From positions 1-39,853 of the IMG/VR virus record IMGVR_UViG_3300035701_000102: a stretch of DNA of 39,853 nucleotides. One strand, 5' to 3'. Under the pieces are notes generated by a model. It saw nothing but the letters and a program-made list of their open reading frames with translations. It did not search any database and was not told where the DNA came from. The translations under genes were made by a program, and so were the position numbers. Positions 1,570 to 29,825 of this stretch are shown piece after piece. How positions within the stretch are numbered: the stretch's first letter is position 1; the number at the start of each line of letters is the position of its first letter. The DNA is from a virus.

Positions 1570-1612
1570 GCCCCTCACCATACATTACGCATCCAGTTCC
1601 GATATTGTTCAC
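1570..1612 (-). promoter_or_regulatory. Conserved promoter-like module P1
   Basis: Minus-strand copy of a module found five times in the first 4.5 kb. It has GTGAAC (-35-like, 1612-1607), an internal GGAAC, then TGCG-TAATGT (-10-like from 1587) 19 bases from the first hexamer, and a downstream GGGGCA. It faces left, towards the four small minus-strand genes, and is divergent from P2. Confidence 0.65.
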
Positions 1613-1630
1613 CCATGCAAAATAATTTAT

Positions 1631-1670
1631 CTGAACCTTTTCGGAACTGGGTGCGTAATTAAAGTGGGGC
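1631..1670 (+). promoter_or_regulatory. Conserved promoter-like module P2
   Basis: CTGAAC (1631-1636), internal GGAAC (1643-1647), TGCG-TAATTA (1652-1661) and GGGGCA (1666-1671). It reads towards the tRNA-like element and the 72-residue protein gene, and stands back to back with P1. Confidence 0.65.
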
Positions 1671-1689
1671 AGGATGGGAAGGGGGCCAT

Positions 1690-1758
1690 GAGGCAAGGGC
1701 CGCGTGGGCGACAGCGGTGTGAAAGCCGCACTAGCAGGTTCGATTCCTGTTTGCCTCT
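1690..1758 (+). tRNA. tRNA-like element, non-canonical anticodon arm
   Basis: Seven perfectly paired acceptor bases (gaggcaa at 1690-1696 with ttgcctc at 1751-1757) and a standard T arm with a TTCGATT loop (1734-1750) are directly visible. The middle is irregular: 68 bases between acceptor ends, about four short of a normal tRNA. One fold gives a 5-bp D stem with a GG-containing loop and then only a 3-bp anticodon stem; another gives a GCGG/CCGC stem with an 8-base loop containing GTGAAA. No CCA is encoded. It could be a degenerate tRNA, a tRNA mimic, or a tRNA-derived attachment segment; amino-acid identity cannot be assigned. Confidence 0.4.
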
Positions 1759-1778
1759 CTTGAAAGGCGGTGAGAACC

Positions 1779-1997
1779 ATGAAGACCACAGGATGCCGAA
1801 AGAACCAGACAATCAATCTGCCGTACTTGCAAGCCAAGCGGAACGTGGTAAACGTGCGCCGGGTGGGCAGGGGCGTTGATGTTGGCGAAGTGTTCCACAA
1901 TGGAGCCTGGACGATGGTGCAGAGGCATACGAAGACCGGGGCGTGGACGCATACCAGTCAAGCTGCGGTGGATTACTTGGTCGAACACGGATATTGA
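1779..1997 (+). CDS. Hypothetical small basic protein
   Basis: 72 residues from the ATG at 1779, which is preceded by aaggcggtgagaacc. The chain is basic in its first half (QAKRNVVNVRRVGRG) and ends with a short helix (SQAAVDYLVEHGY). No family recognised. It is the first protein gene downstream of P2 and the tRNA-like element. The next module, P3, overlaps its stop codon. Confidence 0.55.
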   Translation: MKTTGCRKNQTINLPYLQAKRNVVNVRRVGRGVDVGEVFHNGAWTMVQRHTKTGAWTHTSQAAVDYLVEHGY

Positions 1998-2032
1998 ACA
2001 TTTACGCATAAGGTGCGTATAATTGCTGGGGC
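1994..2032 (+). promoter_or_regulatory. Conserved promoter-like module P3
   Basis: The copy closest to a textbook promoter: TTGAAC (1994-1999), 18 bases, TATAAT (2018-2023), preceded by TGCG and followed by GGGGCAT. It lacks the internal GGAAC of the other copies. It drives the 286-residue gene that starts at 2054. Confidence 0.7.
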
Positions 2033-2053
2033 ATAACACGAAAGGGGAAAGCC

Positions 2054-2914
2054 ATGCGAGAACTGAATCCTTACGACCGTTTCGACCGCATTCACGACGC
2101 CGCGCTGGCCTGTGCCAAGACCCGGCAGGGAGAGAATCGGATCGAAGAGACTGAGTATCACCATGGCGTTGCTGAGCCTGGGTACGACGACAAGCCGACT
2201 GTTCTGGGCAACTGGAACAAGATCAGCAAGTGGCACAAAGACCGATCAATCGACCTGGACGAAGCGCCAGCACGCATGGCGCACGCCCTGGAGGCCGCTG
2301 GCCTCAGTATCGAGTGGTCCGACGAGTGGACCGTCTGCGCGGACTGTTCCAAGCTGGTGCGGTCGCAGCCTGACAGCTATTCCTGGACGCGGGCGTACTG
2401 GGACGATGAAGACGGGTATGCGCACTGTGAAAGATGCACGGACAAGGACGACTCGGAATACCTGGAGTGGCTGGAAGGTCACGAAGACCGGGCGGCCACG
2501 TTCCAAGTGGACCTGGAAGCCGCTGGGTACAAGTGCCTGGAAGACCGGCTGGAATCCGGCCTGTACGGCGGCCAGGACGCTTCCCCGTCGAAGATCGCAG
2601 CCGCCCTGCGGAAACAGGGCGTCGAGCGGTTTATCTTCAGCCTGGACAGCGTAGGGCAGTTTGACGCCAGATTCAGCCTGTGGGTGCATTCTGACGACCT
2701 GGAGAAGTTGGACCGATCAAAATATGACGCTGCCAACAAGCGGGCAGACGTTGACCCGGCCGACGCCTTGAAGCGTGGCCTCCAGGGAGCCACGGTGGCG
2801 CTATCAAAGCTGCCGGTCGGGCCAGGGGTCAAGATGGCCAAGATCGGCCCTGACGGCACGGTAGAGGCCCGGCTTGTGTCGCCTGAAGAGTTCATCGAAG
2901 GGATAAAGGATTGA
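2054..2914 (+). CDS. Conserved hypothetical protein with a zinc-finger-like centre
   Basis: 286 residues; ATG preceded by gaaaggggaaagcc. The middle carries a CxxC pair (VCADCSK, near residue 96) and a second (HCERC, near residue 130), a spacing that fits a zinc-binding ribbon. The flanking text (IEWSDEWT, PDSYSW, LEWLEGHEDRA) resembles, from memory, an uncharacterised phage and plasmid protein family. Function unknown. It forms its own transcription unit, with module P3 before it and a strong terminator just after it. Confidence 0.7.
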   Translation: MRELNPYDRFDRIHDAALACAKTRQGENRIEETEYHHGVAEPGYDDKPTVLGNWNKISKWHKDRSIDLDEAPARMAHALEAAGLSIEWSDEWTVCADCSKLVRSQPDSYSWTRAYWDDEDGYAHCERCTDKDDSEYLEWLEGHEDRAATFQVDLEAAGYKCLEDRLESGLYGGQDASPSKIAAALRKQGVERFIFSLDSVGQFDARFSLWVHSDDLEKLDRSKYDAANKRADVDPADALKRGLQGATVALSKLPVGPGVKMAKIGPDGTVEARLVSPEEFIEGIKD

Positions 2915-2923
2915 CGATGCTTA

Positions 2924-2962
2924 GGTAGCTAACGGACCATCCGTGTCCGGTAGCTACCTTTT
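2924..2962 (+). terminator. Rho-independent terminator
   Basis: Stem GGTAGCTA plus CGGAC pairs with GTCCG plus TAGCTACC, with a short loop, followed directly by TTTT (2959-2962). It ends the 286-residue gene and sits just before module P4. Confidence 0.8.
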
Positions 2963-2965
2963 CAT

Positions 2966-3009
2966 GCGAACCATTTAGGAACGTGGTGCGTAATATATGA
3001 TAGAGGGGC
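2966..3009 (+). promoter_or_regulatory. Conserved promoter-like module P4
   Basis: GCGAAC (2966-2971), internal GGAAC, TGCG-TAATAT (2987-2996) and GGGGCAT (3005-). A TATGAT also lies at 2996-3001. It serves the 155-residue gene starting at 3026. Confidence 0.65.
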
Positions 3010-3025
3010 ATGAAAGGAATGGGCC

Positions 3026-3493
3026 ATGAGAGTCAACAGAAGCTACCACCTGACCTACCACAGCAAGCGCAAGAACCGCAAGTCGCGGCTGGATCGCAAA
3101 GCACGCAAGGCGCGGAAACTCGCCAAGCTGCATTTCCGAGACGGGTATCCCGGCCACTACTTCAAGCCTGCGCCCGCTGGACGCCGGTGGGAGTTTGTCG
3201 AAGCCGCCACGCTGGCGTGCGACGAACTGAAACGTGGCAACCGTCTTCCCGCCGCGCCGGATGGCGTGAGTGAACCGCGATGGAACGCGATGGTTCGATC
3301 TGTGGCCAACGGAGCCACGGTCGAGAGCGACAAGCGCGGCCTCTGGAGCGGGCACTATGACGACCGGGAAGTGTACGACTTCGATCAGAAGGAACTGAAC
3401 GAGTTGAGCAAGTACACGGCAAACCGGGAACTGGCCAAAAAGCTGTTCCTGGGGATGGATGTCCCAACGGTCGAACTGGACAACTTAGTTTGA
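3026..3493 (+). CDS. Hypothetical protein with basic N-terminus
   Basis: 155 residues; the ATG at 3026 follows aaaggaatgggcc. The first 50 residues are strongly basic (KRKNRKSRLDRKARKARKL), then comes a mixed alpha/beta body with an acidic C-terminal stretch. The basic start suggests nucleic-acid contact but no motif is decisive. It is first in a run (3026-4462) with the shared leader pattern gaaaggaannnngccATG. Confidence 0.6.
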   Translation: MRVNRSYHLTYHSKRKNRKSRLDRKARKARKLAKLHFRDGYPGHYFKPAPAGRRWEFVEAATLACDELKRGNRLPAAPDGVSEPRWNAMVRSVANGATVESDKRGLWSGHYDDREVYDFDQKELNELSKYTANRELAKKLFLGMDVPTVELDNLV

Positions 3494-3506
3494 AAGGAAC
3501 CAAGCC

Positions 3507-3902
3507 ATGACAACCTACATCCGAGAAGCGTTTGATAAGGTCTGCGAAGACGCGCGTGAGCCGGAAGGCGCGTACGTCTGCCTGATGGAGCGGACGCCTT
3601 TTTACGGCGGGCCGGAAGAGGGCGGCTGGTGGGGCTGCGACACGGATGTTGTCGAGTACAAGTGGTTCAGCACCACGGAAGAGGCCGAGAGCGTCAGGGC
3701 CAAGGTCGATGAACTGGCCGAAGAGTTAAAGGCCGAGAGCGTCCGGTCGCACGGCGAACATTGCCTGCGAGAAATGGAGTGGCTGGAGGCGCGCGGCCTG
3801 GATGCCGATTATCTGCCTGAGCCGGATGGTCCGAGCGATTACTACGTCACAGTGGCCGACAAAGTGCCAACGGGGCGAAGCGGCTGCCGACATTACGAAT
3901 GA
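3507..3902 (+). CDS. Conserved hypothetical phage protein
   Basis: 131 residues, very acidic; ATG preceded by gaaaggaaccaagcc. The segment AYVCLMERTPFYGGPEEGGWWG is distinctive and matches, from memory, a small family present in many phages with no known role. A helical acidic middle (EEAESVRAKVDELAEELKAE) is coiled-coil-like. High negative charge is typical of small early phage proteins that bind host factors or mimic DNA, but nothing here shows that directly. Confidence 0.65.
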   Translation: MTTYIREAFDKVCEDAREPEGAYVCLMERTPFYGGPEEGGWWGCDTDVVEYKWFSTTEEAESVRAKVDELAEELKAESVRSHGEHCLREMEWLEARGLDADYLPEPDGPSDYYVTVADKVPTGRSGCRHYE

Positions 3903-3913
3903 AAGGAAATGCC

Positions 3914-4462
3914 ATGAATACCATCGACGCAATCACCAAGGGCGAGTTTGCCTGCACGATCTACCAGGATGAAGATGCCGAGTCTCCCCGCGAGTGGGAC
4001 AACCTGGGAACGATGATTTGCTTCCACGGGCGATACAACCTGGGCGACAAGCATGAACTGAGCCTGGAGGAAGCGCGCGAACTGGAAAACAGCGACGACG
4101 TTATCAGCCTGCCGCTCTACCTTTACGATCACAGTGGCCTGCGGATCAAGGTTGGTTCCTTCGCGGGACTCTTGCCGCAAGGCCACGCCGAGTTTGATTC
4201 TGGCAAGGTGGGTTTCGTCTACTGCACCAAGGAAAAGGCGTGCAAGGAATATGGGTGCAAGCGGATCGGGCCGCGCCGCCGAATGGCGGTGGAAAAGGTA
4301 CTGGAGGGGGAAGTGAAGACTTATGACGACTACCTGAGTGGCCAAGTTTACGGATATAGCATCGAAGACAAGAACGGCGACCACGTTGATTCCTGCACCG
4401 GATTCTACGGCCTAGACGATGCGCGTTCCGCCGCGAACGCAGCGATGGACAATCCAGGATGA
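3914..4462 (+). CDS. Conserved hypothetical phage protein
   Basis: 182 residues from the ATG at 3914, chosen for its leader gaaaggaaatgcc, like its neighbours; an ATG at 3899 overlapping the previous stop would add five residues. The text YQDEDAESPREWDNLGTM, then RYNLGD, then LPLYLYDHSG and a late KVGFVY marks a widespread phage family that I recognise by sequence but that has no assigned function. It ends the P4 unit; module P5 begins seven bases after its stop. Confidence 0.7.
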   Translation: MNTIDAITKGEFACTIYQDEDAESPREWDNLGTMICFHGRYNLGDKHELSLEEARELENSDDVISLPLYLYDHSGLRIKVGSFAGLLPQGHAEFDSGKVGFVYCTKEKACKEYGCKRIGPRRRMAVEKVLEGEVKTYDDYLSGQVYGYSIEDKNGDHVDSCTGFYGLDDARSAANAAMDNPG

Positions 4463-4468
4463 AATGCA

Positions 4469-4512
4469 GTGACCCTTTTAGGAACGCCGTGCGTAATGTA
4501 GAGTAGTGGGGC
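4469..4512 (+). promoter_or_regulatory. Conserved promoter-like module P5
   Basis: GTGACC (4469-4474), internal GGAAC (4481-4485), TGCG-TAATGT (4490-4499) and GGGGCAT (4508-). It drives the gene run from 4536 to about 6298. Confidence 0.65.
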
Positions 4513-4535
4513 ATCAATACGAAAGGAACCAAGCC

Positions 4536-4799
4536 ATGAAACTCTCAGACGAAACACTCCCCCGGCACAGCGCTCTCGCGCCAAACTTCAGCGAAGTCAC
4601 GCTGGGTGAACTGGACCTGTACTTCAGCTACGCTACATTAGTTGCGTTTCGAGCGGGCGGCAAACTGGTTGTTCGCGTCAATGACTGGAGCGCCACGACC
4701 GGCAAGCACCTGAACGCCATCGACGGTGGCGATAAGAAATCGCGGCTGGAGGCCACGGAGTTTGTGGAAGCCTACCGCAAGGCGATGAAAGGAAAGTGA
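4536..4799 (+). CDS. Conserved small phage/plasmid protein
   Basis: 87 residues from the ATG at 4536 (leader gaaaggaaccaagcc). The segments LYFSYATLVAFRAGG and NDWSATTGKHLNAIDGG are typical of a small family of unknown function common on phages and plasmids (possibly Pfam DUF8033; name from memory). Predicted fold is mostly beta. First gene after module P5. Confidence 0.65.
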   Translation: MKLSDETLPRHSALAPNFSEVTLGELDLYFSYATLVAFRAGGKLVVRVNDWSATTGKHLNAIDGGDKKSRLEATEFVEAYRKAMKGK

Positions 4800-5424: not shown

Positions 5425-5900
5425 AAACTACAACGAAGCCGCATGTCATCTCCGCGATGAATGCGCAGGTGGTCTATGGGTGGATCAAAGAGCGGGGTGG
5501 CATTGCAATCTGGAGGTCAATCAACCTTGGGAATCCCGGCGCTTCCTGGAGTGCGCCAGTCAAGTCCGCCGCTGGCGAAGTTTACGGGAAACCTAACTGG
5601 CAGTGCGGAAACGAGCCTGAGCGAATCATCACCGATCCCGCCGAAGTCAACGTGACTGTCGGCAAGGAAGCTAAGCGATTCAAGATCAGGACGCGATTGA
5701 GCGACAATGGATTGACGATCAAGCTGGATGGCAGGAGCAGTGAGCGCGTGCGCCGATACCTGGAAAAGTACCAGACGGAAGACAAGGAAACGTGGTATGA
5801 GTTCGACGGGGACACCTGTATCATCATGGTCGATGATACCGTGACTCCGCTGGTTGATTACATAAAGGCAGGGGTATTTGCAAAAAGGAATCTGCTATGA
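5421..5900 (+). CDS. Conserved hypothetical protein
   Basis: 159 residues, ATG overlapping the preceding stop. The N-terminal text (GWIKERGGIAIWRSINL followed by NPGASWSAP) and the ITDP and RFKIRTR elements look, from memory, like a small protein family found in phages and in some environmental bacteria, without known function. The C-terminal third alternates strand and helix (RRYLEKYQ, TWYEFDGDTCIIMVDD). Confidence 0.6.
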   Translation: MKTTTKPHVISAMNAQVVYGWIKERGGIAIWRSINLGNPGASWSAPVKSAAGEVYGKPNWQCGNEPERIITDPAEVNVTVGKEAKRFKIRTRLSDNGLTIKLDGRSSERVRRYLEKYQTEDKETWYEFDGDTCIIMVDDTVTPLVDYIKAGVFAKRNLL

Positions 5901-6298
5901 CAATGGAACCGCTTCTAATGATCGAAATAGCGCTGAGTGACGACAGGAAAAGCATGAGAGTCACGTATGAAAGGGAAGGAACCTGGACAGCGTTTTCTGT
6001 GACATCAGCGGCAGAGTTTCGTAACGCACTCCTGGATGCCGCGAGCAAGATGGAAGACGGCGGGAACGATGGCGAAGGGCCGGGCGTCATTGGAATCAGT
6101 GACGGTATGCGTATCGTGCTGGGATTCAACCGCACGGACAGGCACTTCTATTTCAACCGGCGTCAGGTGAACGTCCTGACGAAGACGCTGAAATTGGCAA
6201 TCGAAAAGCACGCGGAACTGAGTGCGGAATCGAGTGAGGGCAGTGGCAAATCGGAACCTGAGTTGTTTAATGCCGTCAAGCAGGTAGAATGGAACTGA
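5897..6298 (+). CDS. Hypothetical protein
   Basis: 133 residues, ATG overlapping the previous stop and preceded by aaaaaggaatctgct, a strong ribosome site. The same 20 bases around this start recur at 33218-33237. The protein is alpha/beta with no motif I can name. It ends the coupled string that begins at 4803. Confidence 0.55.
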   Translation: MTMEPLLMIEIALSDDRKSMRVTYEREGTWTAFSVTSAAEFRNALLDAASKMEDGGNDGEGPGVIGISDGMRIVLGFNRTDRHFYFNRRQVNVLTKTLKLAIEKHAELSAESSEGSGKSEPELFNAVKQVEWN

Positions 6299-6333: not shown

Positions 6334-6591
6334 ATGGCGACAGTACAAGAACGTGGACGCGGGCGGCCACCGGCCGTTCCGCCTAGAGGCAAGTCGGGTG
6401 AGTTTGCCAGGAATCTGAGGCGCTACAGGATGGAAGTTGCCATGTCAGTTGAAGTTATGGCGCAAAAGGCTTGCGTCAGCCGTTCCCTGGTGAATAAGTT
6501 TGAGGCTGGCAAGGCGCACCCATCGGTCGATACTCTTTCGCGGCTGGCGAAGGTTCTGAAAGTCAGCATTGCGGACTTGTACGAAGACTGA
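6334..6591 (+). CDS. XRE-family helix-turn-helix regulator
   Basis: 85 residues from the ATG at 6334, eight bases after a GGAGG ribosome site; earlier start-like codons lack one. A helix-turn-helix of the lambda repressor-like class covers residues about 25-83: FARNLRRYRMEVAMSVEVMAQ, then KACVSRSLVNKFEAGKAHPSVDTLSRLAKVL. A basic, Pro-rich N-terminal tail (RGRGRPPAVPPRGK) precedes it and may act as a DNA-minor-groove arm. It lies between the early genes and the structural operon, a natural place for a middle or late regulator. Operator not identified. Confidence 0.85.
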   Translation: MATVQERGRGRPPAVPPRGKSGEFARNLRRYRMEVAMSVEVMAQKACVSRSLVNKFEAGKAHPSVDTLSRLAKVLKVSIADLYED

Positions 6592-6830: not shown

Positions 6831-6862
6831 CTGCCCGAACCTAAGCCGATTGAATAACCATA

Positions 6863-6899
6863 GGCACGTAATCCCTTCGCGGGGTTGCGTGCCTTTTTT
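6863..6899 (+). terminator. Rho-independent terminator
   Basis: GGCACG.AATCCC pairs with GGGGTT.CGTGCC around a TTCGC loop and is followed by TTTTTT (6894-6899). It lies directly in front of the structural gene that starts at 6906, leaving six bases between the T-run and the start codon. Confidence 0.85.
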
Positions 6900-6905
6900 C
6901 GTTTT

Positions 6906-8651
6906 ATGGTCACAGCAGCAAACCACGACCTAGAACAGATCGTCGCCACGCACTTTCCAGCCGATAAGTTCGTGCGCGTCCGCGACATTCCGATCTTTGC
7001 CGAGCATGAAGCTGAAGGGCCGGATGGACAACGGATTGTATATGACCGTCCCGCATTGCAAGCGATTGTTGACCGCTGCAACCGGCGAATCCAGGACACG
7101 GGCGACTTTGCCGTTCTCACGGACGGCCACACGCCGGAAAAGGAAGAGCAAATCGCCGGGATGAAGCAGCCGGAAGTAGTTGGCTTCGTTGGCCCCTTCA
7201 AACTTGGAAAGATCGGATCACTTAACCCGCGCTACGCGATTCTTGCAGACGAGTTTCGATTCAAGGATCGCGCAGACCGGGTTAGCCGACTTCCGAGACG
7301 TTCGGTTGAACTGTGGATGTCGGACAATCCGAACGAAAGATTCTTTGATCCAATCGCCGCCTTGGGCGCTGAGTGCCCGCGACTGGACCTGGGAATCAAG
7401 TACGCCATGCTCCCCAACGGCCAAAGGGTCTTGAAGTATTCGGCCGAAGCACCGGAAAGGCTTGGCACGACCCAGCAATACGGACTTGGATCGGCAATCG
7501 GCAAGGCGCTTGGAATCAAGAAGCGCCCAGACAAAGGATCAGCGACTGGAGAGCGATACGAAATGGAAGGCGGCGGCGGTGACGCCGCGCCGGGCGGATC
7601 GAACACGTATGTAGCTGGCGAGACAGCGGGGAGAAAAAAGTCGCAGTACGGAATCGAGCAGGAACCAATTCCCGGCTCACCTTTGAAGCCGATGCCAAAA
7701 GGTTACGACTGGGAACATCCGGCTTCCAAGCCAAACTTTAAGTCTGCCGAGTCGGAATCGGCGTCGAAGCCGCCAACAAAATACGGAACTGAAACCCAAA
7801 CTGGAGAACCTGGAATGTTCCAGCCTGAAGACCTGAAGCAACTTTTGGACGCGATGAACTCTCTGGACTGGGTGCAATGGGTCAAGGGAAAGATGACGGC
7901 GGAAATGGCTCCCGGTGGGGAGGGACCAGCCGCGCCCGCCCCGTCGCCTGCCCCCGCAGGTGGCCCCCCGCCGGGAGCCGCCCCGCCTCCAGGAATGGCC
8001 CCGCCCGCCGCTGGCCCCGCTGAACTGGGCGGCCAAGAGGAAGAGTTGGGCGCAGAGGAAGAGGGTCTTGGCGCAGAGGAAGAGCATCTTGGGGAAGAGG
8101 AAGCACGCCCCGAAGAGGCCAAGAAAATGCCGTTCGGATGTGACGGCATGAAAAAACCCCAGAACCACACAATCAAAATGAGCCGCGCGGAGTTTTCTTC
8201 GCAGCAAGAGCGGTATCGAAAGCTGGATTCGGCGCACAAGGCGCTGGCCCAGAAGTACGAAAGGCTCAGCGCTGACGTTGCAGTGATGCAGCGCGAGTCG
8301 TCAGACGCGGTGCGTCAAGCGCGGATTGAGCAGGCCGCCTCTGGGAGTGCAATCGACGTAGAGGATGAACTGAACCGCTGCCTGTACTCCAAAGGTTCGG
8401 CGCTGACGGACGAGCAGTTTGAGGATCGTTTGGCGACGGTCGTGAAGTATGCCCGTCCCATCCCCCTTGGCGAATCGTTGCCGCGCGGAGTGGTTTCGAC
8501 GCCCAACAGCGAAGACAGGGCGCGGACGGGACTTTCGGATCGTGCGGTGGAAATCGCTGAGAAGTACCGGAGAGAGGGAAAGCAAATCACCTACCGGGCA
8601 GCCTTGGAAGAGGCTCGCGCGGAGAAGAATGGACACGCGACGGTGAAGTAG
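6906..8651 (+). CDS. Prohead protease / scaffold fusion
   Basis: 581 residues from the ATG at 6906, chosen because earlier in-frame starts lie inside the terminator; no ribosome site is visible. Residues 1-180 hold a domain with conserved elements LTDGHTPEKEEQ, VVGFVGPFKLG and LPRRSVELWM, like the protease part of Mu gpI-type or related capsid maturation proteins. The middle is Pro/Ala/Gly-rich with an acidic repeat of LGAEEE type near residue 380, then a helical coiled-coil-like end (about 420-500) as expected for a scaffold. It precedes decoration and capsid genes, the standard order. The catalytic residues cannot be fixed by eye. Confidence 0.7.
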   Translation: MVTAANHDLEQIVATHFPADKFVRVRDIPIFAEHEAEGPDGQRIVYDRPALQAIVDRCNRRIQDTGDFAVLTDGHTPEKEEQIAGMKQPEVVGFVGPFKLGKIGSLNPRYAILADEFRFKDRADRVSRLPRRSVELWMSDNPNERFFDPIAALGAECPRLDLGIKYAMLPNGQRVLKYSAEAPERLGTTQQYGLGSAIGKALGIKKRPDKGSATGERYEMEGGGGDAAPGGSNTYVAGETAGRKKSQYGIEQEPIPGSPLKPMPKGYDWEHPASKPNFKSAESESASKPPTKYGTETQTGEPGMFQPEDLKQLLDAMNSLDWVQWVKGKMTAEMAPGGEGPAAPAPSPAPAGGPPPGAAPPPGMAPPAAGPAELGGQEEELGAEEEGLGAEEEHLGEEEARPEEAKKMPFGCDGMKKPQNHTIKMSRAEFSSQQERYRKLDSAHKALAQKYERLSADVAVMQRESSDAVRQARIEQAASGSAIDVEDELNRCLYSKGSALTDEQFEDRLATVVKYARPIPLGESLPRGVVSTPNSEDRARTGLSDRAVEIAEKYRREGKQITYRAALEEARAEKNGHATVK

Positions 8652-8669
8652 CTGCGGTGAAGTAGCTGC
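8642..8669. repeat. 14-bp tandem repeat at a stop codon
   Basis: ggtgaagtagctgc occurs twice in a row (8642-8655 and 8656-8669), followed by a partial third copy. The first copy holds the stop codon of the protease/scaffold gene. Confidence 0.9.
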
Positions 8670-8705
8670 GGTTTAAGTAGACCCAAGAAAACGAGGAACC
8701 TTTCC

Positions 8706-9134
8706 ATGACTCATAGCCCCCCGCAACTTATCGCGCGTGGCGATATTAACGTCTCGCGGTTCGTGATGATGGACTCCACTGTTGACCACGGCGGCCTGCA
8801 AGCCACGACGAACGCCAAGATCATTGGCATTCTGCACGACGGGGGGCGAGTGCCGCCGATCCCCGGCACTGGCACGGTCCTGGGGGCCGCGCTTGGCGAC
8901 TCGCTGCGACTGTACGGCAACGGTGACATCTGCCTGCTCACCTACGGCGGGACGATCAAGGCGGGCGATTACCTGAACTCCGACACCAACGGAAAAGGCA
9001 CTGCCATCGCCAGTACCGGCGTGAAGCACATCGGAGCGATTGCTCTGCAAGGGGGAGTATCCGGCGACATCAAGCTGGTTCAAGTGACAATCATGCCCAG
9101 CGCTGACGGCGTTGGCGCGAACGCAAACTCGTAG
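8706..9134 (+). CDS. Capsid decoration (cement) protein, DUF2190-like
   Basis: 142 residues; ATG preceded by gaggaacctttcc. Beta-rich with the DUF2190 type of pattern: VSRFVMMDSTVDHGGLQATT, IIGILHDGG, DICLLTYGGTIKAGDYLNSD, HIGAIALQGG, and a final strand DIKLVQVTI. Proteins of this family sit on the outside of the capsid in several siphoviruses. It lies between the protease/scaffold and the major capsid, as expected. Confidence 0.75.
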   Translation: MTHSPPQLIARGDINVSRFVMMDSTVDHGGLQATTNAKIIGILHDGGRVPPIPGTGTVLGAALGDSLRLYGNGDICLLTYGGTIKAGDYLNSDTNGKGTAIASTGVKHIGAIALQGGVSGDIKLVQVTIMPSADGVGANANS

Positions 9135-9203
9135 TCGATCTGCTAACCCACCGGAAAAGCGACCTGGGTTGGTCGCCAAACATTTCAAACGGAGTGAACA
9201 CAA

Positions 9204-10253
9204 ATGGTTGACTATCCTTCCTTTCCAGGTGGATATAACACGTTCGTCAAATCGCACGAAGCGACGAATCACCTGAAGATCGACTTCTCCCGCAACGTCA
9301 ACAGCTTCCCGCTGAACAAGTACATGCAGCTTCTGCCGGTCAAGAAATCGACCGGGTACTACCTGAAGCTGACGGTCGAAGAGGCGGGCCGGATTCTGAA
9401 TCCGACCACGCTCTCCGACTTCATCTGGCACGACGGAGAACCGCGACCGGAGCGCGTCGAAGGTCAAGAATCGTTCCAGTGGCTGGAGTATCGCACCACG
9501 CGGTACGACTTCGGCTTCCAACTGGGCGACAAGTCCATCGACCAAGCGAGTTGGGACTTGCTCGAAACGCATTCGCGCATCAAGGCCCAGCAGGCCATGA
9601 CCGCGCGGACCCAGGCCGCCATCAACGCGCTGACGACGAGCGGCAACTACGACTCGACTCACGTGAGCGCTGTCGCTTCCGTCAGCGGAAACACTGGAAC
9701 GTGGGCGCAGTCAACAACTCAGCGCCAGGACATTCGGCGTTCGATTCTCAGTGCCGCCAGCATCATCAAAAAGGATGTGCTGGGCGTCACGAAGACCGGG
9801 GACTTGATTTTGGTGATGGGACCGGACACGGCCATCGCCATCAGCGAGTGCCAGGAAATCATCGACCATGTGAAGCACAGTCCGCAGGCGCTTGGTCAGA
9901 TCAAGGGCGACCTGCCCGGCCACAACGCGGAGTGGAATCTGCCAGACCATTTGTACGGCGTGCAAATCGTGGTTGAGGATACGGTCAAGACCACGACCAA
10001 CAAGGGCGCGACGACCAGCAAGGGATACGTGCTTGGCAGCGGCACGGCCGTCCTGGTTTCTCGTCCCGGCGACTTGGTTTCGCCGGGCGAAGGTCCGTCC
10101 TTCAGTACGGCCATGATCTTCGCCTACGAAGAAATGACCGTGGAAACCCTGCGGCAAGTTGACCATCGAAGAGTCAGCGGCCACGTGGTCGATGATTACG
10201 CGGTGGTCGTGACAGCACCCGCGACAGGCTTCCTGTTCACTTCGGCAGTCTGA
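9204..10253 (+). CDS. Major capsid protein (HK97-like)
   Basis: 349 residues; ATG preceded by acggagtgaacacaa. Its length, position right after the decoration gene, and elements such as YDFGFQLGDKSIDQ, a long helix (LLETHSRIKAQQAMTARTQ), LILVMGPDTAI and a late IFAYEEMTVETLRQVDHRRVSGHVVDD match HK97-fold capsid subunits of Mu-like and related siphoviruses. No long N-terminal delta domain is present, consistent with the separate scaffold upstream. Confidence 0.85.
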   Translation: MVDYPSFPGGYNTFVKSHEATNHLKIDFSRNVNSFPLNKYMQLLPVKKSTGYYLKLTVEEAGRILNPTTLSDFIWHDGEPRPERVEGQESFQWLEYRTTRYDFGFQLGDKSIDQASWDLLETHSRIKAQQAMTARTQAAINALTTSGNYDSTHVSAVASVSGNTGTWAQSTTQRQDIRRSILSAASIIKKDVLGVTKTGDLILVMGPDTAIAISECQEIIDHVKHSPQALGQIKGDLPGHNAEWNLPDHLYGVQIVVEDTVKTTTNKGATTSKGYVLGSGTAVLVSRPGDLVSPGEGPSFSTAMIFAYEEMTVETLRQVDHRRVSGHVVDDYAVVVTAPATGFLFTSAV

Positions 10254-10283
10254 CGCTGGGGCGAACTACGGAGCGGTGCGGTT

Positions 10284-10793
10284 ATGTCATGGGCAGCCCC
10301 GGCCGACTTAATGGCGCGAAAGGACTACAACATCTTGGCAGATTTGTGCCAGGATGAAGGGGAGCGTCCGTCGCGGGCCGACATGCTCACGAACGTCAAC
10401 ATCCAGACTTCCCTGGATGATGCCAGCGCCGACATCGAAGCGGCGCTTTTTGTTGCGCACCGATACTCACTTGAAGACCTGACTGGCCTGACTGGGAACA
10501 GCTTGGCATTGCTCAAGCGTATGACATGCGACTTGGCGATGGCCTATCTGTATGACAGGCGGCCGATTCACAATCCAGAGCAGTACGAGCGATACTTGAC
10601 GCTGAAGCGCAACACGCTGGAGCGGTTGCGTACCGGCGAAAATGTGTTTAACCTACCGGCGCAGGAAGACAAAGCACTGCCGACTATCGACGGTCCCACA
10701 AATGCGACCTACGAACGCCTGAACCTGATTCCTGAGAGGACACCGAACTTCTACCCGTTCCGATCTTCCAGGCTGCCAACTGACAGAGGATAG
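10284..10793 (+). CDS. Head-tail connector protein, DUF1320-like
   Basis: 169 residues; start 10284 after ggagcggtgcggtt. Helical, with a central pattern NIQTSLDDASADIEAALFVA, then LLKRMTCDLAMAYLYDRRP, close to phage connector proteins of the DUF1320 (Mu gp36) type that join capsid and tail. Located right after the major capsid gene, as in Mu-like phages. Confidence 0.7.
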   Translation: MSWAAPADLMARKDYNILADLCQDEGERPSRADMLTNVNIQTSLDDASADIEAALFVAHRYSLEDLTGLTGNSLALLKRMTCDLAMAYLYDRRPIHNPEQYERYLTLKRNTLERLRTGENVFNLPAQEDKALPTIDGPTNATYERLNLIPERTPNFYPFRSSRLPTDRG

Positions 10794-10795
10794 CT

Positions 10796-11317
10796 ATGAC
10801 CATTCAAGTAAATGCCAGCGGCCCGATTCTGTTCAAAATCGCCATTGACAGCGGGCTGACGACCCTCCAGAACCTGGGGTACGCCCTGGACCAACCGCGC
10901 GTGATTGAGCAGCCGTACTGGTACGACGTTCACGGCGACCAGCACGGCGGCATGAACGGACCTCCCATCGACGTACAGTACCTGGGGATGGTCATTCGCG
11001 TTCGCGCGGAACTGTCTCGATTCGACCGTGATGTGGCCAACATAGTTCGCAAAAGAATCAGGAATGGAACTATCGGAAGTGTGCCGGACGCCGACATTGG
11101 CGCGCTGGCCTTTCAGTCCCCTGAGTTTATGCGGGTGGTCATGTCCCCCCAACACGCCGTTAGGGGGTCTGCCTCAGAGACACGAAACTATGTATGCTGC
11201 ATCCCGCGCGAAGCGACTGAGCAGAGTTACGGCACGAAGTTCAGCACCTTCATTTTCGAGTTTGAGGCGCACCGCTATCAGGCCAGCAGCGGCCTTGTCG
11301 AAAACTCCACCAGCTAA
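10796..11317 (+). CDS. Probable major tail tube protein
   Basis: 173 residues, starting two bases after the connector gene (ribosome site gacagaggatagct). Beta-rich with GPPIDVQYLGMVIRVRAELSRFD and a late GTKFSTFIFEFEAHRY. The position directly before the tail assembly chaperones is that of the tail tube protein in siphoviruses; the sequence alone is not decisive, and it could instead be another tail completion protein. Confidence 0.55.
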   Translation: MTIQVNASGPILFKIAIDSGLTTLQNLGYALDQPRVIEQPYWYDVHGDQHGGMNGPPIDVQYLGMVIRVRAELSRFDRDVANIVRKRIRNGTIGSVPDADIGALAFQSPEFMRVVMSPQHAVRGSASETRNYVCCIPREATEQSYGTKFSTFIFEFEAHRYQASSGLVENSTS

Positions 11318-11330
11318 GGTCAGTGCGGCA

Positions 11331-11801
11331 ATGTTTCAATGGCTGAAAAACAGGCGCGAAAGAATAGAAGCGTCAAGGCGTGCCATTTTCCGTTTCTGGG
11401 ATGGCATCAAGTGGCGATACGCCGATCCGATGGCGATTGCGCAGCACCTGGACGAAGACCCAGAGTACGATGCTGCCACGACGCCGCGACTGCTTCAACT
11501 CCAGGACATGGATGCTTTTTTTGTGACGGTGCGCGCCACGCGCCGGGCGTTCGGAGTTCAGGAGTGGACTCAGGAAACAGGCGGCCTGACGGTCCAGGAG
11601 ACGATGGCATTGCTAAGGAACTACTTCCTCTTCACGGAGAGTGTAAAAAAAAACACAGAAGATTCTGCGAACTCGCCGCCCTCTACGGAATTGGGGAACT
11701 CGAAAGAATCGAGCGAACCGACTACGAACGGTTTTGCGCACTCTGGTTCAACCAGCACAGAGTCGGAATCCAGTGTGCCAATCGAGTCCGCATCGGCGTA
11801 G
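11331..11801 (+). CDS. Tail assembly chaperone (gpG-like), zero-frame product
   Basis: 156 residues from the ATG at 11331. The first 105 residues are helical and structured (RAIFRFWDGIKWRYADPMA, RLLQLQDMDAFFVTVRATRRAF). After the A-run at 11645-11653 the zero-frame protein turns into a low-complexity Ser/Thr/Glu/Asn tail, whereas the -1 frame continues as ordinary protein. Placement between tail tube and tape measure fits a G-type chaperone. See the longer frameshift product. Confidence 0.65.
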   Translation: MFQWLKNRRERIEASRRAIFRFWDGIKWRYADPMAIAQHLDEDPEYDAATTPRLLQLQDMDAFFVTVRATRRAFGVQEWTQETGGLTVQETMALLRNYFLFTESVKKNTEDSANSPPSTELGNSKESSEPTTNGFAHSGSTSTESESSVPIESASA

Positions 11802-11953
11802 ACTACGCACTTTGCACGGCATTCGGCGGTTCCCTGCCAGCATCATTCTTCGATGCAATTTCCGATACGCCTGAAGAGGCGGCGCATCTTCACGGAAAGC
11901 ACACCGTCTACCAGCGCATGAATGGTTCCACCACCGCGCGGAGGGGGAGTTGA
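11331..11953 (+). CDS. Tail assembly chaperone extended by -1 frameshift (gpGT-like)
   Basis: Nine adenines at 11645-11653 follow the sense codon GTA in the zero frame, a classic slippery run. A -1 slip joins the first ~106 residues to a frame that reads KHRRFCELAALYGIGELERI, then DYERFCALWFN and further structured sequence to a stop at 11953, giving about 207 residues. The downstream part has no start codon with a ribosome site of its own near its beginning. Programmed -1 shifting of this gene pair is the rule in siphoviruses; the shift here is inferred from sequence, not shown. Confidence 0.65.
11645..11653 (+). promoter_or_regulatory. Slippery A-run, predicted -1 frameshift site
   Basis: Run of nine A between gtgt and cacagaag. 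Its position in the chaperone gene, and the change from structured to low-complexity protein in the zero frame just after it, support a programmed slip. Runs of A in assemblies can also be length errors. Confidence 0.6.
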
Positions 11954-11956
11954 ACC

Positions 11957-13411
11957 ATGTGGCCACTACTTGCAGAACTTGTCGGCCCAATGATGGCCGA
12001 GACTGGCGCTGCCGCAGGGGCCGTTGAAGGCGCTGCGGCCACTGGGGCGGCCAGCGCTGCTGGCGTTGCCGAAAGTGCCGCTGGAAGCGCAGAGGCCGCA
12101 GCGGGCAGGGCCGCAGCGTCTGGATCGGTGTCGCCCATCCAGGCTCCCCCGGCAATCCAGCCGCCACCCATCCAGAGCCGCATACCCGTCCAGGCTCCCC
12201 CCGTCCAGGGTCAGCCAGTCCAGCAAAAGACCTTCATCCACAAGATGACCGAAAGGCTTGTGGATCGTTTCCTTCCGGCCAACCCAGCCGCAGCGCCTGG
12301 AGCGGTGTCTGCGCCCGCGCAGGGGGCGGCCCAGGCGCAGGGGGCGGCCCAGTCGCAGGGCGTCTGGCAGCGAGTGGCAGGAAAGCTAGCCGATAGCGTG
12401 CTTCCGCCGCAATTAAGGGGCATCATTTCCGGCGAGGGACAAGCGGCACATGAAGGCAATGCCTTCGACCGCATACTGCGCCAGAGCAAAATCGCTGGGG
12501 GGCAAAGCGGGAGTGCGGGCGGGAATGCAAAGTCCGCAGAGGAAGCATCGCAGGCCGCGATGCGGTCGAAGGCGATGAATGACGAGCGCGCGGCACAGGC
12601 TGGAAATCCGCAGCTAAACCCAGCATCGCATTCCGTGTCACAGCGCGTCTCTCAGGCCATGTTCGGCAATCCAGTTCCGACACCGGCCCAGTCCAGGTCC
12701 GTTGCCGATCAGGCCGTCGCCAAGATGGACTCCCAGCAACTTCAGCAAGCTGGGGCCAGTCCCTGGAATATGATCGGTGGAGACGGCCAGCGCGACGAAG
12801 GAAAAGAGCGTAAGCGCATTGCCGAGAAAATGATGGAGGAAGATCAGTCGAAGGCTAAAGAGCAGGGGAAGGGCATACTTGGAGGCGTTGCGCTGGCCGC
12901 TACAGGCAATCCGATGGGCGTGATGGCGGGCGTGGTGGCTATTGGTGGCGCGTTCATTGGCCTTGGGAAGATTGTCGAGAAGTTCGGTGAGCATTTAATA
13001 GAGTCCCAGAGAGACTTGGCGCGGTTCAATGGCTCCATCGCAGCGTCGATGGCTCAGTTGGACGTTGAGAGAATAGGGCGCGAAATTGCGATGGGCGGAA
13101 GGACATCTGCTAGCGTAGCATACCTGACTGAAGCGCAGAGCAGATTTGAAGAGGCAGCCATTCCCATCGAGGCGATTTGGACAAACGCCACGAACCGCAT
13201 AGAAGGATTCATGCTCAACATAGGAACGAAAGTCATGGAGTACGGATCGACATTCTTTTCCAACATTCCGATTGTAAACGATGCGCTCAAGAAGCTGGCC
13301 AACATGGGAGACACATCCGTTCCAGCGTGGCAGTCTTTCCTCAGTGACGTATCTGAGGGGCGACACATGAGCGCGGCTGAACGTGCCTCCAGCACAGAAA
13401 TCAGAAGATAA
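11957..13411 (+). CDS. Tail tape measure protein (short)
   Basis: 484 residues; ATG after ggagggggagttgaacc. Ala/Gly/Gln-rich N-terminal 170 residues with repeats (AQGAAQAQGAAQ type, coded by tandem DNA repeats near 12315-12360), a long helical charged middle, a hydrophobic segment (GILGGVALAATGNPMGVMAG... to GGAFIGLG, about residues 305-340) and an amphipathic C-terminal third. This composition and the place after the chaperones indicate the tape measure. At this length the tail would be short, on the order of 70 nm if the usual 1.5 A per residue holds. Confidence 0.75.
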   Translation: MWPLLAELVGPMMAETGAAAGAVEGAAATGAASAAGVAESAAGSAEAAAGRAAASGSVSPIQAPPAIQPPPIQSRIPVQAPPVQGQPVQQKTFIHKMTERLVDRFLPANPAAAPGAVSAPAQGAAQAQGAAQSQGVWQRVAGKLADSVLPPQLRGIISGEGQAAHEGNAFDRILRQSKIAGGQSGSAGGNAKSAEEASQAAMRSKAMNDERAAQAGNPQLNPASHSVSQRVSQAMFGNPVPTPAQSRSVADQAVAKMDSQQLQQAGASPWNMIGGDGQRDEGKERKRIAEKMMEEDQSKAKEQGKGILGGVALAATGNPMGVMAGVVAIGGAFIGLGKIVEKFGEHLIESQRDLARFNGSIAASMAQLDVERIGREIAMGGRTSASVAYLTEAQSRFEEAAIPIEAIWTNATNRIEGFMLNIGTKVMEYGSTFFSNIPIVNDALKKLANMGDTSVPAWQSFLSDVSEGRHMSAAERASSTEIRR

Positions 13412-15453
13412 TGGGCGATCAGGTAGAAATCAGGACGTTGGTGAGCCAGACGGAAGTGGAATACAACGGAGTTGTATTGCACGGCGTCAGGACTCTGGCA
13501 TTCGATGAAACCGTTCAGAGAGACGAGAGCGGGACGGACATCCTCTACCATCAATTCCACATCAGAGTCGAGTCGCTTGTCCACAGTTACACAAAGTTCT
13601 CTACCATTGACCCCGACCCGCCGCACGCGGGTCCAGATGCAGTCTCGCGGGCAGCCATTGCGTATGCTTCCGTCAGTTCCGTCCAAAACGCTTCGGCGTC
13701 TGACTCCATGGCTGCACTGCACGCTAGGCTAATGCAAGACCGGGGAATCTTCAGGTATTACACTGGAAACAAGTTGCTTTTGGAGGCGACTAGCGCTGGC
13801 AATAGCCTAACGCGCGATGTGAATAATGGCCCCAAGCCAATTTTCTGCAACATCACTCACGTAGCAGCGGGTAAGGTGTATCGGATTGAGTTTGAAATCG
13901 AAGTCTGTTTGGTCAAGTGCCCCGGCAGTAGCGGACAGCCTTCAGGCCAGGGGGAGGTAGCTGAATTACTCAACAATCGCTGGTCGTGTGAGGATACATA
14001 CGACGAAAACCAATATCTGACACGATACGTCGATGGGGTTTTGCGCGTTTCTCAAATAGAGAAAAGTCCACGGGCCTTTTTGCCATACGTCATTCCGCCG
14101 CTGCCAGAGGGATTCCGACGAGAGCGAGTCAAGGGACTGGTAAGCGCTGACGGCCTGACGCTTCGGTACTCTTTTCAAGATCGGCGCGAGTATGCAGCGC
14201 CGCCATCGCCAGCCACAAGCTGGGAAGCCAGCTACACTGAAACGACTTCGGACTCTGGAGCCAGCATATTCGCTGAAGTCAGTGTGCGACTGGAGGGGCC
14301 GCCAGACGCCAGCAAGGCAAAGATGCTGGCCAGATGCACCCAGGTCGTGGAGGCTCGTCTTGGAAGCCAAAGGCGCAACTACAACACGAAAGAAAAAAAG
14401 GGTGGAAACTGGTACGTCGTGGCGGCCAGCATCATAGAAATCCTCAACAAGAACCAAGTGGAACTTCGCGTCCGAGTTCGCAGACTCAACATCACAAGCG
14501 AAACGTGGCTCTTGCAGCGCGTTTCAACGATAGGCACGTTCCTGGACAATCCGAACGGCGCAGTTGCCGCAGCCACGACAAAGGAAAGGGAAATGCAGGG
14601 CGTCCCCCTTCCAGAATACTATCCGCAGAAGTTTCCGTGTCCTGATGTGTCCACCCTCCCAGTTGGCCCGTTTGCGATGATGCTCCAAGACCCATGCGGG
14701 TCTAATGAAAAGCATCGACTGTTCGGATATTACACTACTCCGAGCGGCGTGGGCGTAGATCAATACGGAGGACAGACACCACCTAAGACCGATGGAACTT
14801 CCGCCACGCGGAGGGACACAATCACGCGCACGGCAGACACCAATGCTGACTGGAGGGTTGCGGGGGAGGGTGTGGTAATCACCAAGCCAGAGGGATTGGC
14901 GAAAAGCGTATTCTCCCCCGACCACGAATTAGACCTGTATCTGCACTACGTCGCTGAGAATCGGTACGTCATAAACTTCGGCAAGGTCATGTTGCCGGTG
15001 TCGCTTACATCCTCTTCTGTTGCTGGGGCGACTCCATCGACAGGCGCAACGGGAACCATATCATCGTCTACACCCACGGCAAAGGATACGGCCGTATTCG
15101 CAAGGATTCACGAACCGATAGTCCAGCGCATTCTGCGAATCGTGACGGAGCGGCGAGGCGCGCAGCCTGTGCTGCCCAAGATGACGGAAGAAATAACCCA
15201 GACCAGCGGCCTGAAGGAAGTCTTGCTGGACGTTAGCTACAACCCGAAGACTCCGAAGCTGTCCCCAGATGGAACAGACTACACTTACGGAGTCGATGTG
15301 ACTTATACTTACGGACTATCACGAAAGCCATCTAGCGAAACTTCATCTACCGACAAGTATCGCGTTAGCGCTTCTGAAGTTGTTCAGTTGAAAGACTCCG
15401 ACTTTGCCCTCAATGAAGCAACGGCGTTCGCTAAGGAAGTGGAGAAGATATAA
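13411..15453 (+). CDS. Large tail/baseplate protein
   Basis: 680 residues, start overlapping the tape measure stop (TAATG). Mostly predicted beta with no enzyme motif. Place after the tape measure is that of distal tail or baseplate hub proteins. Elements visible include VRTLAFDETVQRD near the start and repeated strand-rich blocks throughout. No named family recognised, so the baseplate role rests on position and size. Confidence 0.6.
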   Translation: MGDQVEIRTLVSQTEVEYNGVVLHGVRTLAFDETVQRDESGTDILYHQFHIRVESLVHSYTKFSTIDPDPPHAGPDAVSRAAIAYASVSSVQNASASDSMAALHARLMQDRGIFRYYTGNKLLLEATSAGNSLTRDVNNGPKPIFCNITHVAAGKVYRIEFEIEVCLVKCPGSSGQPSGQGEVAELLNNRWSCEDTYDENQYLTRYVDGVLRVSQIEKSPRAFLPYVIPPLPEGFRRERVKGLVSADGLTLRYSFQDRREYAAPPSPATSWEASYTETTSDSGASIFAEVSVRLEGPPDASKAKMLARCTQVVEARLGSQRRNYNTKEKKGGNWYVVAASIIEILNKNQVELRVRVRRLNITSETWLLQRVSTIGTFLDNPNGAVAAATTKEREMQGVPLPEYYPQKFPCPDVSTLPVGPFAMMLQDPCGSNEKHRLFGYYTTPSGVGVDQYGGQTPPKTDGTSATRRDTITRTADTNADWRVAGEGVVITKPEGLAKSVFSPDHELDLYLHYVAENRYVINFGKVMLPVSLTSSSVAGATPSTGATGTISSSTPTAKDTAVFARIHEPIVQRILRIVTERRGAQPVLPKMTEEITQTSGLKEVLLDVSYNPKTPKLSPDGTDYTYGVDVTYTYGLSRKPSSETSSTDKYRVSASEVVQLKDSDFALNEATAFAKEVEKI

Positions 15454-17123
15454 TGCCATTCAATTTTAGTTACGCTGGCGGACTATTTACGATCCTTGGA
15501 AAGATTTTCAAGGCCCAGGAAGATGCCTTATCGGTAGTCGTCAGCGGCGGATCAATCGACACCGACATAACGGCAGTCCTGACGGCATTCGATGCACTGA
15601 ACGGTGGTGTTCCGACGCTAGATCAGCAGGTGTCCATACAGGGTCTTCGGGGTGCTATGCGAAGTTGGCAGAACACGAAGAGCCTACTGAGCGGACTTGA
15701 AGATGTGGCAAAAAAGTTTCTTATTCAGTTTATAAACGACTGGCATCCGCTGGCTGACAGGAACCTGGACACTGCCGTTGATTATCTGATTGCGATAATG
15801 AACGGCAGCGGCGGCGAATCATCCCCAGACGCCAGCGTTCTGCGATCTACTCCAACTATTGTCTTCACGCCGAGTGGCAGCATCGTTGGTGACGCGAAGA
15901 TTGACGGGACAATCCTTGACGGCGATGGAAGACCGCTTGAAATCGTTCTGGAGGAAGGCGCAGGAGTGTCAGTCGATGCCGCCTCTCAGCAACTTTTGTT
16001 CGCCGGGACGATAGCTTCTGGAGGGGTTATGGATTACGACTGGCCGCTGGGTTCCGGCATCCAGACCGGCCTTTCAACTGCATCGCTAGGCTCCAGCGGA
16101 TTATTAACTAACGGAGGATTCGATTCCGAAAGTTCAATCCAGTCAAGCCTGCCCGCCAGTTGGCTGCTCTCCGTGGGTGCTCCAGGGACGACTATCTTGA
16201 TGTCCACAGCGGAAGTGCAGACAGTCATCATAAGCGGTTCTCCAGCCAGCGGATCGTATGCGATCAAGTTCACAAATATACTTGGCTTCATCCAGCAAAC
16301 GATTCCTCTTACTTGGAATGCGACGGGGAGCGCTGTTCAGTCTGCGATCAATCTACTGTTCGGTCTGTCGAGTTGCACTGTAGTAACAACTGGCACAACG
16401 CCAAACTACACGCACACAATTACCTTTACCGGCGCTTTCCCCCCAGGCGACCAGACAATACTTAGTTCCGTGAACTCACTCAACACGGGCAGTATCGCAC
16501 ACGCGCAAGTCACTGCGGGGACTCCCGCATTCTATGGCCGATCATTGTCATTCGTGGGCGATGGTGCAACGGTGCATTCCATCTATCAGAAGATTACCCT
16601 TTCACCACGGACGGTCTACGCATTCCACTGCCGACTGCTTTTAAGCGCCGCACCGGCCGCTGGAGTGTTGAAGGTCGAACTGATGGACGGAGTTGGCGGA
16701 AGCGTTCTCACGGACGCGCACGGAAACTCAAACGTGATTACGGCCACATTGACTTCTGGAATTGCAACGGTTGGCAGTCCATTCACGCCGGTTACTGGAT
16801 TCTTCAGGATCAAAGACCCAGTGCCGGATGCGGTGTACATTCGCATTCGACTCAGCACGGCGCTCAGTAATGCCAAGACCCTGTATCTTGACGAAGCGAA
16901 GTTGTCCCAGGCGCAGCAGTTGTATCCTGGAGGCCCGTTCGTGGCCGCGTTCTACGGAAGGCTTGCCCACGCTGGCACAGATACATGGACAGCCACTACC
17001 ACAAACGATCGCGCCGGGGAGTTTAATGAGTGGTTCTACCGAAACGGCCTATTGCCAGCGGGCAAATACCTGCCGAGTAAGACATCTGGAAATACCATTG
17101 ACGACACGACGTTGATTGCTTAA
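15453..17123 (+). CDS. Tail/adhesin-type protein, CBM-like jelly roll with an inserted domain
   Basis: 556 residues; ATG overlaps the previous stop (TAATG). N-terminal 130 residues are helical (attachment-like). At residues about 217-240 LLTNGGFDSESS with a later PASWLL looks like the start of a CBM4/9-type jelly roll; the fold seems to resume after about 355 with GRSLSFVGDGA, IYQKITLSPRTVYAFHCRLL. In between (about 253-355) is a separate repeat-type unit: EVQTVIISGSPASGSYAIKF, WNATGSAVQSAINLL, HTITFTGAF, which I recognise as a stand-alone beta domain in large surface proteins. Likely a virion surface or host-binding component. Confidence 0.55.
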   Translation: MPFNFSYAGGLFTILGKIFKAQEDALSVVVSGGSIDTDITAVLTAFDALNGGVPTLDQQVSIQGLRGAMRSWQNTKSLLSGLEDVAKKFLIQFINDWHPLADRNLDTAVDYLIAIMNGSGGESSPDASVLRSTPTIVFTPSGSIVGDAKIDGTILDGDGRPLEIVLEEGAGVSVDAASQQLLFAGTIASGGVMDYDWPLGSGIQTGLSTASLGSSGLLTNGGFDSESSIQSSLPASWLLSVGAPGTTILMSTAEVQTVIISGSPASGSYAIKFTNILGFIQQTIPLTWNATGSAVQSAINLLFGLSSCTVVTTGTTPNYTHTITFTGAFPPGDQTILSSVNSLNTGSIAHAQVTAGTPAFYGRSLSFVGDGATVHSIYQKITLSPRTVYAFHCRLLLSAAPAAGVLKVELMDGVGGSVLTDAHGNSNVITATLTSGIATVGSPFTPVTGFFRIKDPVPDAVYIRIRLSTALSNAKTLYLDEAKLSQAQQLYPGGPFVAAFYGRLAHAGTDTWTATTTNDRAGEFNEWFYRNGLLPAGKYLPSKTSGNTIDDTTLIA

Positions 17124-17176
17124 CCCACTCCCGCTACAATGCGGGGCAACCGTTTCCCTTTTTACAGGATTCGACC

Positions 17177-17401
17177 ATGAGTTTCTTTAGCGACCAGCTT
17201 ACGGCGGCCCTGCTCAGCGCCACGACAACGGACTCCGTGCGGAGCGATCTGTCGAGTGCCTTCACGACGTTTCGGGCGTCACTAAGCACTGCCATCGTCA
17301 CCAATCACGGACGCAGCGCGACGAGCGCCGAAGTGATTGACATTCTGGACTCGAAATTGATCGACCTGGCGCGCAGCATTGGGATAATGCTGCATAACTA
17401 A
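17177..17401 (+). CDS. Small virion-associated hypothetical protein
   Basis: 74 residues, helical, Ser/Thr/Ala-rich; ATG preceded by ttacaggattcgacc. No family recognised. A small hairpin (cccgc at 17130-17134, gcggg at 17141-17145) lies in the 53-base gap upstream but lacks a directly attached T-run. Confidence 0.5.
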   Translation: MSFFSDQLTAALLSATTTDSVRSDLSSAFTTFRASLSTAIVTNHGRSATSAEVIDILDSKLIDLARSIGIMLHN

Positions 17402-17404
17402 CCC

Positions 17405-29802: not shown

Positions 29803-29825
29803 CTTTGTTTTGAAGGGAGAAAAAA

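Follow-up and report, generated by a model that had tools for sequence, protein, structure and literature searches.

A five-copy promoter-like cassette with a putative shared regulator site in one gene cluster of a tailed phage

Results

The module-headed gene cluster

The window analysed in this study is a 39,853-base IMG/VR virus record (IMGVR_UViG_3300035701_000102; G+C 56%). Between 1.5 and 4.6 kb it contains five copies of a long promoter-like module, here called P1 to P5, each of which heads a transcription unit and is oriented along the unit downstream. P1 is on the minus strand (whole module 1569-1611, core 1584-1611, GGGGCA 1569-1574) and precedes four small open reading frames (ORFs) on that strand, a 30-amino-acid (aa) ORF at 1454-1546 followed by 1161-1466, 897-1157 and 484-900. 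The other modules and their units are on the plus strand. P2 (whole 1632-1671, core 1632-1659, GGGGCA 1666-1671) leads into a tRNA-like gene and ORF 1779-1997 (72 aa). The variant module P3 (1995-2023, GGGGCA 2028-2033, whole 1995-2033) serves ORF 2054-2914, whose 286-aa product is related to hypothetical proteins of Rhodococcus, Mycobacterium and Bacillus phages. P4 (whole 2967-3010, core 2967-2994, GGGGCA 3005-3010) heads ORFs 3026-3493, 3507-3902 and 3914-4462. P5 (whole 4470-4513, core 4470-4497, GGGGCA 4508-4513) heads six ORFs, from 4536-4799 to 6334-6591; the latter, the last regulatory gene of the unit, encodes an XRE/Cro-C1 helix-turn-helix (HTH) protein (PF01381) and is a candidate regulator of the modules.

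Sequence and significance of the modules

The four full copies (P1, P2, P4 and P5) share an ungapped common register, (T)GAAC-N6-GGAAC-N4-TGCGTAAT. In this register GAAC (GACC in P5) is followed by N7, GAAC, N4 and TGCGTAAT, and the base before TGCGTAAT is G or A. An earlier note on this DNA had reported five modules with matching spacing and with TGAAC and GGAAC in every copy. All five sites are present where it placed them, and the four full copies are indeed identical in spacing. P3, however, reads TTGAACATTTACGCATAAGGTGCGTATAAT: it lacks the GGAAC found in the other four, and its gap from TGAAC to TGCG is one base shorter, although TGAAC, TGCGTA and GGGGCA are retained. The first block is TGAAC in P1, P2 and P3, but CGAAC in P4 and TGACC in P5. 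The distance from TAAT to GGGGCA also departs from uniform spacing (9, 6, 4, 10 and 10 bases in P1 to P5); with a gap that varies over 4-10 bases, GGGGCA does not belong to a rigid site and stands as an element of its own.

A weight matrix was built from P1, P2, P4 and P5, and chance was estimated from 60 first-order Markov windows. These modules scored 40-44 bits, or 30-40 bits when left out of training, compared with a mean of 10.6 and a maximum of 18.5 bits for the best score per simulated window. The next best place in the window reached 8.6 bits, and the matrix scan found no full copy in the window outside 1.5-4.6 kb. In addition, GGGGCA occurs no more than 24 nucleotides (nt) after TGCGTA in all five modules but after none of the 17 other TGCGTA sites in the window (approximately 4e-5 by simple counting). 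A chance origin of the modules was ruled out by the matrix scores against simulated windows and by the GGGGCA counts. The copies occupy positions expected of promoters, and the proposal that conservation in the spacer and in GGGGCA extends past that of an ordinary promoter is supported by inference.

A possible degenerate sixth copy lies on the plus strand at 6214-6242 (GGAACTGAGTGCGGAAT-N6-AGGGCA), within ORF 5897-6298 and 104 nt upstream of the XRE gene at 6334. Its candidate right half (+6214-6230) scored 19.6 bits, a value reached by 0.5% of second-order Markov windows. Separately, a match to the left half of the module (TGAACCATTTCAGAAC) was found on the minus strand at 29244-29259, inside ORF 28778-29386. 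This match exceeds chance (0/200 simulations) and has neither a right half nor a unit to serve.

Flanking features

From the end of GGGGCA to the start codon there are 15-22 nt, with an AAAGG-type ribosome site in between; for P2 there are 18 nt to the tRNA-like gene. P1 and P2 stand back to back, as had been noted, with 28-nt arms that are 86% complementary and 20 nt apart. It had also been stated that the copies head gene units just after a terminator or gene end, and this is what we observed: the start of P3 falls within the stop codon of ORF 1779-1997, P4 directly follows a strong intrinsic-terminator-like hairpin with TTTT (2923-2962, plus strand; an inverted repeat with a fold z of -5.3), and P5 begins 7 nt past a stop codon. 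A terminator stronger than the hairpin before P4 closes the cluster ahead of the structural genes (6862-6900, plus strand).

The tRNA-like gene (1690-1759, plus strand) was reported by ARAGORN as tRNA-???, and its minimum-free-energy fold is a cloverleaf. The acceptor stem and T arm are perfect, but the D arm is short (3 bp) and the anticodon loop is odd, with 6 or 8 nt (UGUGAAAG). A whole-window scan gave no Rfam match for it, and a local scan gave a weak, sub-threshold match to tRNA-Sec. It might represent a tRNA of the frameshift type, a decoy or a tRNA that has decayed.

Resemblance to sigma70 promoters

In P3, TTGAAC-18-TATAAT matches the sigma70 consensus at 10/12 positions with a perfect TATAAT, whereas random windows have their 99% point at 9.5; counting both strands, the window contains only four TATAAT. 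Between its -35 and -10 this module holds TACGCA-N5-TGCGTA (2003-2019), an exact inverted repeat. At the same place P4 and P5 have TAGGAA and P1 and P2 have TCGGAA, with the same N5 and TGCGTA (overall TMGGAA-N5-TGCGTA), and two-fold symmetry of this spacer block is thus exact in P3, 4/6 in P4 and P5 and 3/6 in P1 and P2. The best sigma70 scores of P1, P2, P4 and P5 are 7-8, compared with a median of 6.5 and a 95% point of 8 for random 68-bp windows. The earlier description of the modules as sigma70-like promoters with an embedded operator therefore fits P3, with its 10/12 match and exact inverted repeat, but not the other four, which are within the random range; because these score as random, the general label draws on P3 alone.

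A near-consensus sigma70 promoter (TTGACA-16-TATGAT, 26070-26097, plus strand) was observed elsewhere in the window, upstream of another small XRE gene (26136). This gene and its promoter are divergent from the ERF and exonuclease genes, and the presence of such a promoter makes sigma70 use by the phage plausible.

Phage, probable host and distribution of the module

The window codes for a head scaffold, major capsid protein, DnaB helicase, ERF recombinase and exonuclease, and is probably a fragment, because it lacks end repeats. The closest DnaB matches among 84,980 species were in Planctomycetota (41%), the top one being a chromosomal dnaB adjoining ribosomal protein genes. In 12 of 397 Pirellulales genomes, open frames matched the capsid protein at 39-50%; its matches in IMG/VR reached 64%. 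Together, the DnaB and capsid matches suggest that the host probably belongs to Pirellulales (Planctomycetota). Early-gene and protease queries detected no close relatives, and DnaB relatives in viral contigs showed at most 44% identity over any segment. The order of the structural genes (6885-20471) is retained in related phages; none of the 17 ORFs before them had a match in the related phages compared. Three consecutive secreted-looking proteins with signal peptides, unusual for a phage, are encoded at 29350-32405 on the plus strand; one has a CAP domain (PF00188) and another resembles a cysteine peptidase by eye.

The module was not found in IMG/VR, approximately 400 Pirellulales genomes or 68 loci of related phages, in searches that used mostly exact patterns, plus matrix scans of related loci, and in collections that may omit records very near the window. 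In IMG/VR, 117 full-core matches lacked the other blocks and were taken as chance, and looser two-block patterns returned 73 and 27 stretches, all of them unrelated sequence by eye, including one contig that appeared twice. No copy was present in the 68 capsid-related viral loci or in 14 Pirellulales regions. Among Pirellulales, four exact core matches (197 genomes) and two two-block matches (397 genomes) were detected, with the remainder of the module absent in each case.

In G404, which has the closest capsid (64% identity) and is the nearest relative to carry a small-gene cluster, the same genomic slot is occupied by a different small-gene cluster read in both directions and showed no repeated module. 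Since the cluster ORFs are unmatched in relatives and this slot holds another cluster in G404, the module is, as judged from these comparisons, part of an exchangeable gene cluster. A candidate operator of G404's own (GGTATCTTGATACC) was observed in a divergent start region (loci L400 and L401, ~37400-40600). The earlier note had proposed looking for the motif in related phages. No copy was detected by that check, a result of limited weight given that the contigs compared contain no detectable relatives of the cluster genes.

Discussion

In this study, we describe what appears from its sequence to be a five-copy promoter-like cassette with a putative shared regulator site; the repeat is real, its sequence is new, and its arrangement is known from other phages. 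The modules are very probably promoters, and it is likely that one factor reads their spacer block. Our assignment of this factor as a repressor, with an activator or a sigma factor as the alternatives, is tentative, and its identity with the XRE protein encoded at 6334 is a possibility that we hold with less confidence. Taken as a whole, the best explanation, which we favour tentatively, is a promoter cassette read by one shared regulator, possibly the phage XRE repressor.

According to this model, a tailed phage would employ the cassette at five places, possibly six, within a single private gene cluster. Host RNA polymerase would start just downstream of TGCGTA(AT), near GGGGCA, and GGGGCA would form the 5′ end of each leader. 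The spacer block, TMsGmA-N5-TGCGTA, would be the 17-bp site of one DNA-binding protein, palindromic in P3 and asymmetric elsewhere, and this protein would set all five units together. From this position, with the -35-like block on one side and the start on the other, the bound protein would be in direct contact with RNA polymerase and could either obstruct or assist it. The most likely regulator would be the phage XRE repressor (6334-6591), made from the P5 unit; the position of its gene in this unit and the possible degenerate module before it make feedback repression the first choice. The cluster would then be on at entry and subsequently turned off by feedback, much like the action of lambda Cro. 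The same layout as in the proposed cassette is found in Pirellulales lexA promoters, where a repressor box follows TTGACT and precedes the -10 (21/29).

Several observations weigh against this model. P1, P2, P4 and P5 are not sigma70-like by consensus, and their weak cores favour an activator or another sigma factor. Their spacer block is also asymmetric, which is unusual for the site of a dimeric XRE repressor. Moreover, no related phage with the module was found, and no single base thus has comparative support. It is conceivable, albeit doubtful, that four of the five starts are of a non-sigma70 type and depend on a dedicated factor reading TGAAC-N6-GGAAC-N4-TGCGTA, which would represent a previously undescribed phage promoter class. 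The dedicated factor might in that case be a captured host extracytoplasmic function (ECF) sigma or a phage-made activator or sigma, and would serve to switch a private cluster that includes a tRNA-like RNA.

An ECF-type promoter, with TGAAC as -35, a spacer of 16-17, CGTA(AT) as -10 and a conserved spacer element, would account for the four copies that are not sigma70-like. The sigma factor could be made by the host or by a part of the phage outside the window. P1 and P2 read TGAAC-N17-CGTAAT, P4 and P5 have the CGAAC and TGACC versions, respectively, and P3 has TGAAC-N16-CGTATA, such that the spacer is 17 in four modules and 16 in P3 and CGTA is present in 5/5. This arrangement resembles ECF promoters with an AAC-type -35, a 16-17 spacer and a CGT-type -10, such as GGAAC-N16-CGTT with its near-invariant AAC (PMC7083833), and conserved spacer elements have been described in ECF promoters (PMC5333181). 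However, no sigma factor was recognized among the window genes scanned, AAC is found in only 4/5 modules (P5 has ACC), P3 has a perfect sigma70 -10, and the modules add GGGGCA and, in the full copies, an invariant GGAAC. The bare pattern occurred in 40 Pirellulales genomes at roughly twice the frequency of its reversed control; of the sites fetched, however, just 3/30 were outside long ORFs, and on these counts the pattern is not visibly a host promoter class. We consider an ECF origin rather unlikely.

Also unlikely, in our estimation, is activation of four weak sigma70 promoters, in the manner of lambda CII or T4 MotA, by a protein bound to GAAC-N7-GAAC across the -35 and spacer, with P3 acting as a factor-independent early promoter. 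The direct repeat has a period of 11 bp, equal to one helical turn; P1, P2 and P4 match it exactly and P5 differs at one position. Weak cores are found in exactly the four full copies, whereas P3 lacks the second repeat but has a strong core. On the other hand, no activator was identified, and the strongest conservation is further down, in TGCGTA and GGGGCA, which an activator would leave unexplained. A non-promoter role in recombination or gene-cassette exchange, replication or stoperator-like termination could be envisaged for sequences that are repeated and located between gene units, and such repeats mediate deletions in cluster O phages (PMC4351075). The constant orientation with the downstream unit, the narrow distance to start codons, GGGGCA downstream, the full sigma70 promoter inside P3 and the restriction of the modules to one cluster make this role improbable.

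The geometry of GAAC-N7-GAAC, exact in P1, P2 and P4, is on the other strand that of the alphaproteobacterial-type LexA box (GTTC-N7-GTTC), known as the Caulobacter SOS box GTTCN7GTTC (PMC9578287), which would place the cluster under SOS control. This reading is highly improbable: in the probable host order the lexA element differs (TTGAC-N1-3-TGWAC-N2-4-MGTATA, 21/29 upstream regions), neither GAAC-N7-GAAC nor GTTC-N7-GTTC was found in any of the 29 Pirellulales lexA upstream regions, and the Pirellulales element has no match in the window. As an observation in its own right, lexA was present in all 58 Pirellulales genomes sampled, and 21/29 of its promoters (loci L365-L394) contained TTGACT-N-TGTACA-N2-CGTATATTATA (TTGACT-N-TGTACA-N2-CGTATA) between -35 and -10. 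This element is likely the LexA box of that order, and a limited literature search found no earlier description of it. Three further candidates for the modules were rejected: sigma54 (GG-N10-GC) and GGAAC as an ECF -35, both by inspection for wrong spacing, and a promoter for a T7-type single-subunit RNA polymerase because of the variable spacing to GGGGCA.

Comparison with known systems could help place the cassette. Like T4 early and middle promoters, the modules would form a phage promoter family conserved beyond -35 and -10 (PMC2988021). In T4 middle promoters a phage-specific box replaces the -35 and a phage factor is needed (PMC2988021); however, the MotA box is 9-10 bp long and lies 12 +/- 1 bp before a good TAtaaT, whereas the modules have a block of approximately 28 bp, P1, P2, P4 and P5 have no middle-type -10 at a set distance, and no MotA or AsiA is known here. 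The SAS and ESAS elements of cluster K mycobacteriophages are likewise conserved and repeated upstream of several small phage genes, and ESAS contains an imperfect 17-bp inverted repeat (PMC11373665). SAS, however, is positioned 3-9 bp upstream of the start codon, with a presumed role in translation, whereas the modules are ~30-60 nt upstream, with a promoter-like core and another sequence, and even GGGGCA, their nearest element, falls outside the SAS distance. Cluster O phages carry a repeated 17-bp dyad of unknown function, TGTTCGG-N3-CCGAACA, with many copies intergenic (PMC4351075), but these are more than 30 perfect dyads found genome-wide, compared with five asymmetric cassettes in 3 kb that are all oriented with transcription. 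Cluster A stoperators are also repeated asymmetric sites along transcription, read by a monomeric HTH immunity repressor (PMC9283540, PMC4351075); they occur genome-wide, including at non-promoter sites, whereas the modules are limited to the starts of one cluster.

Among the papers searched, we found few on planctomycete phages and none on transcription control in such phages. The Pirellulales lexA element could help read SOS control in that order. With regard to the phage itself, the five-copy cassette would constitute a compact regulon, in which one short DNA sequence is combined with a candidate regulator in the same cluster and a possible sixth site before the gene of this regulator. Should four of the starts indeed depend on a dedicated factor, a further use of the module could be as a specific switch in planctomycetes.

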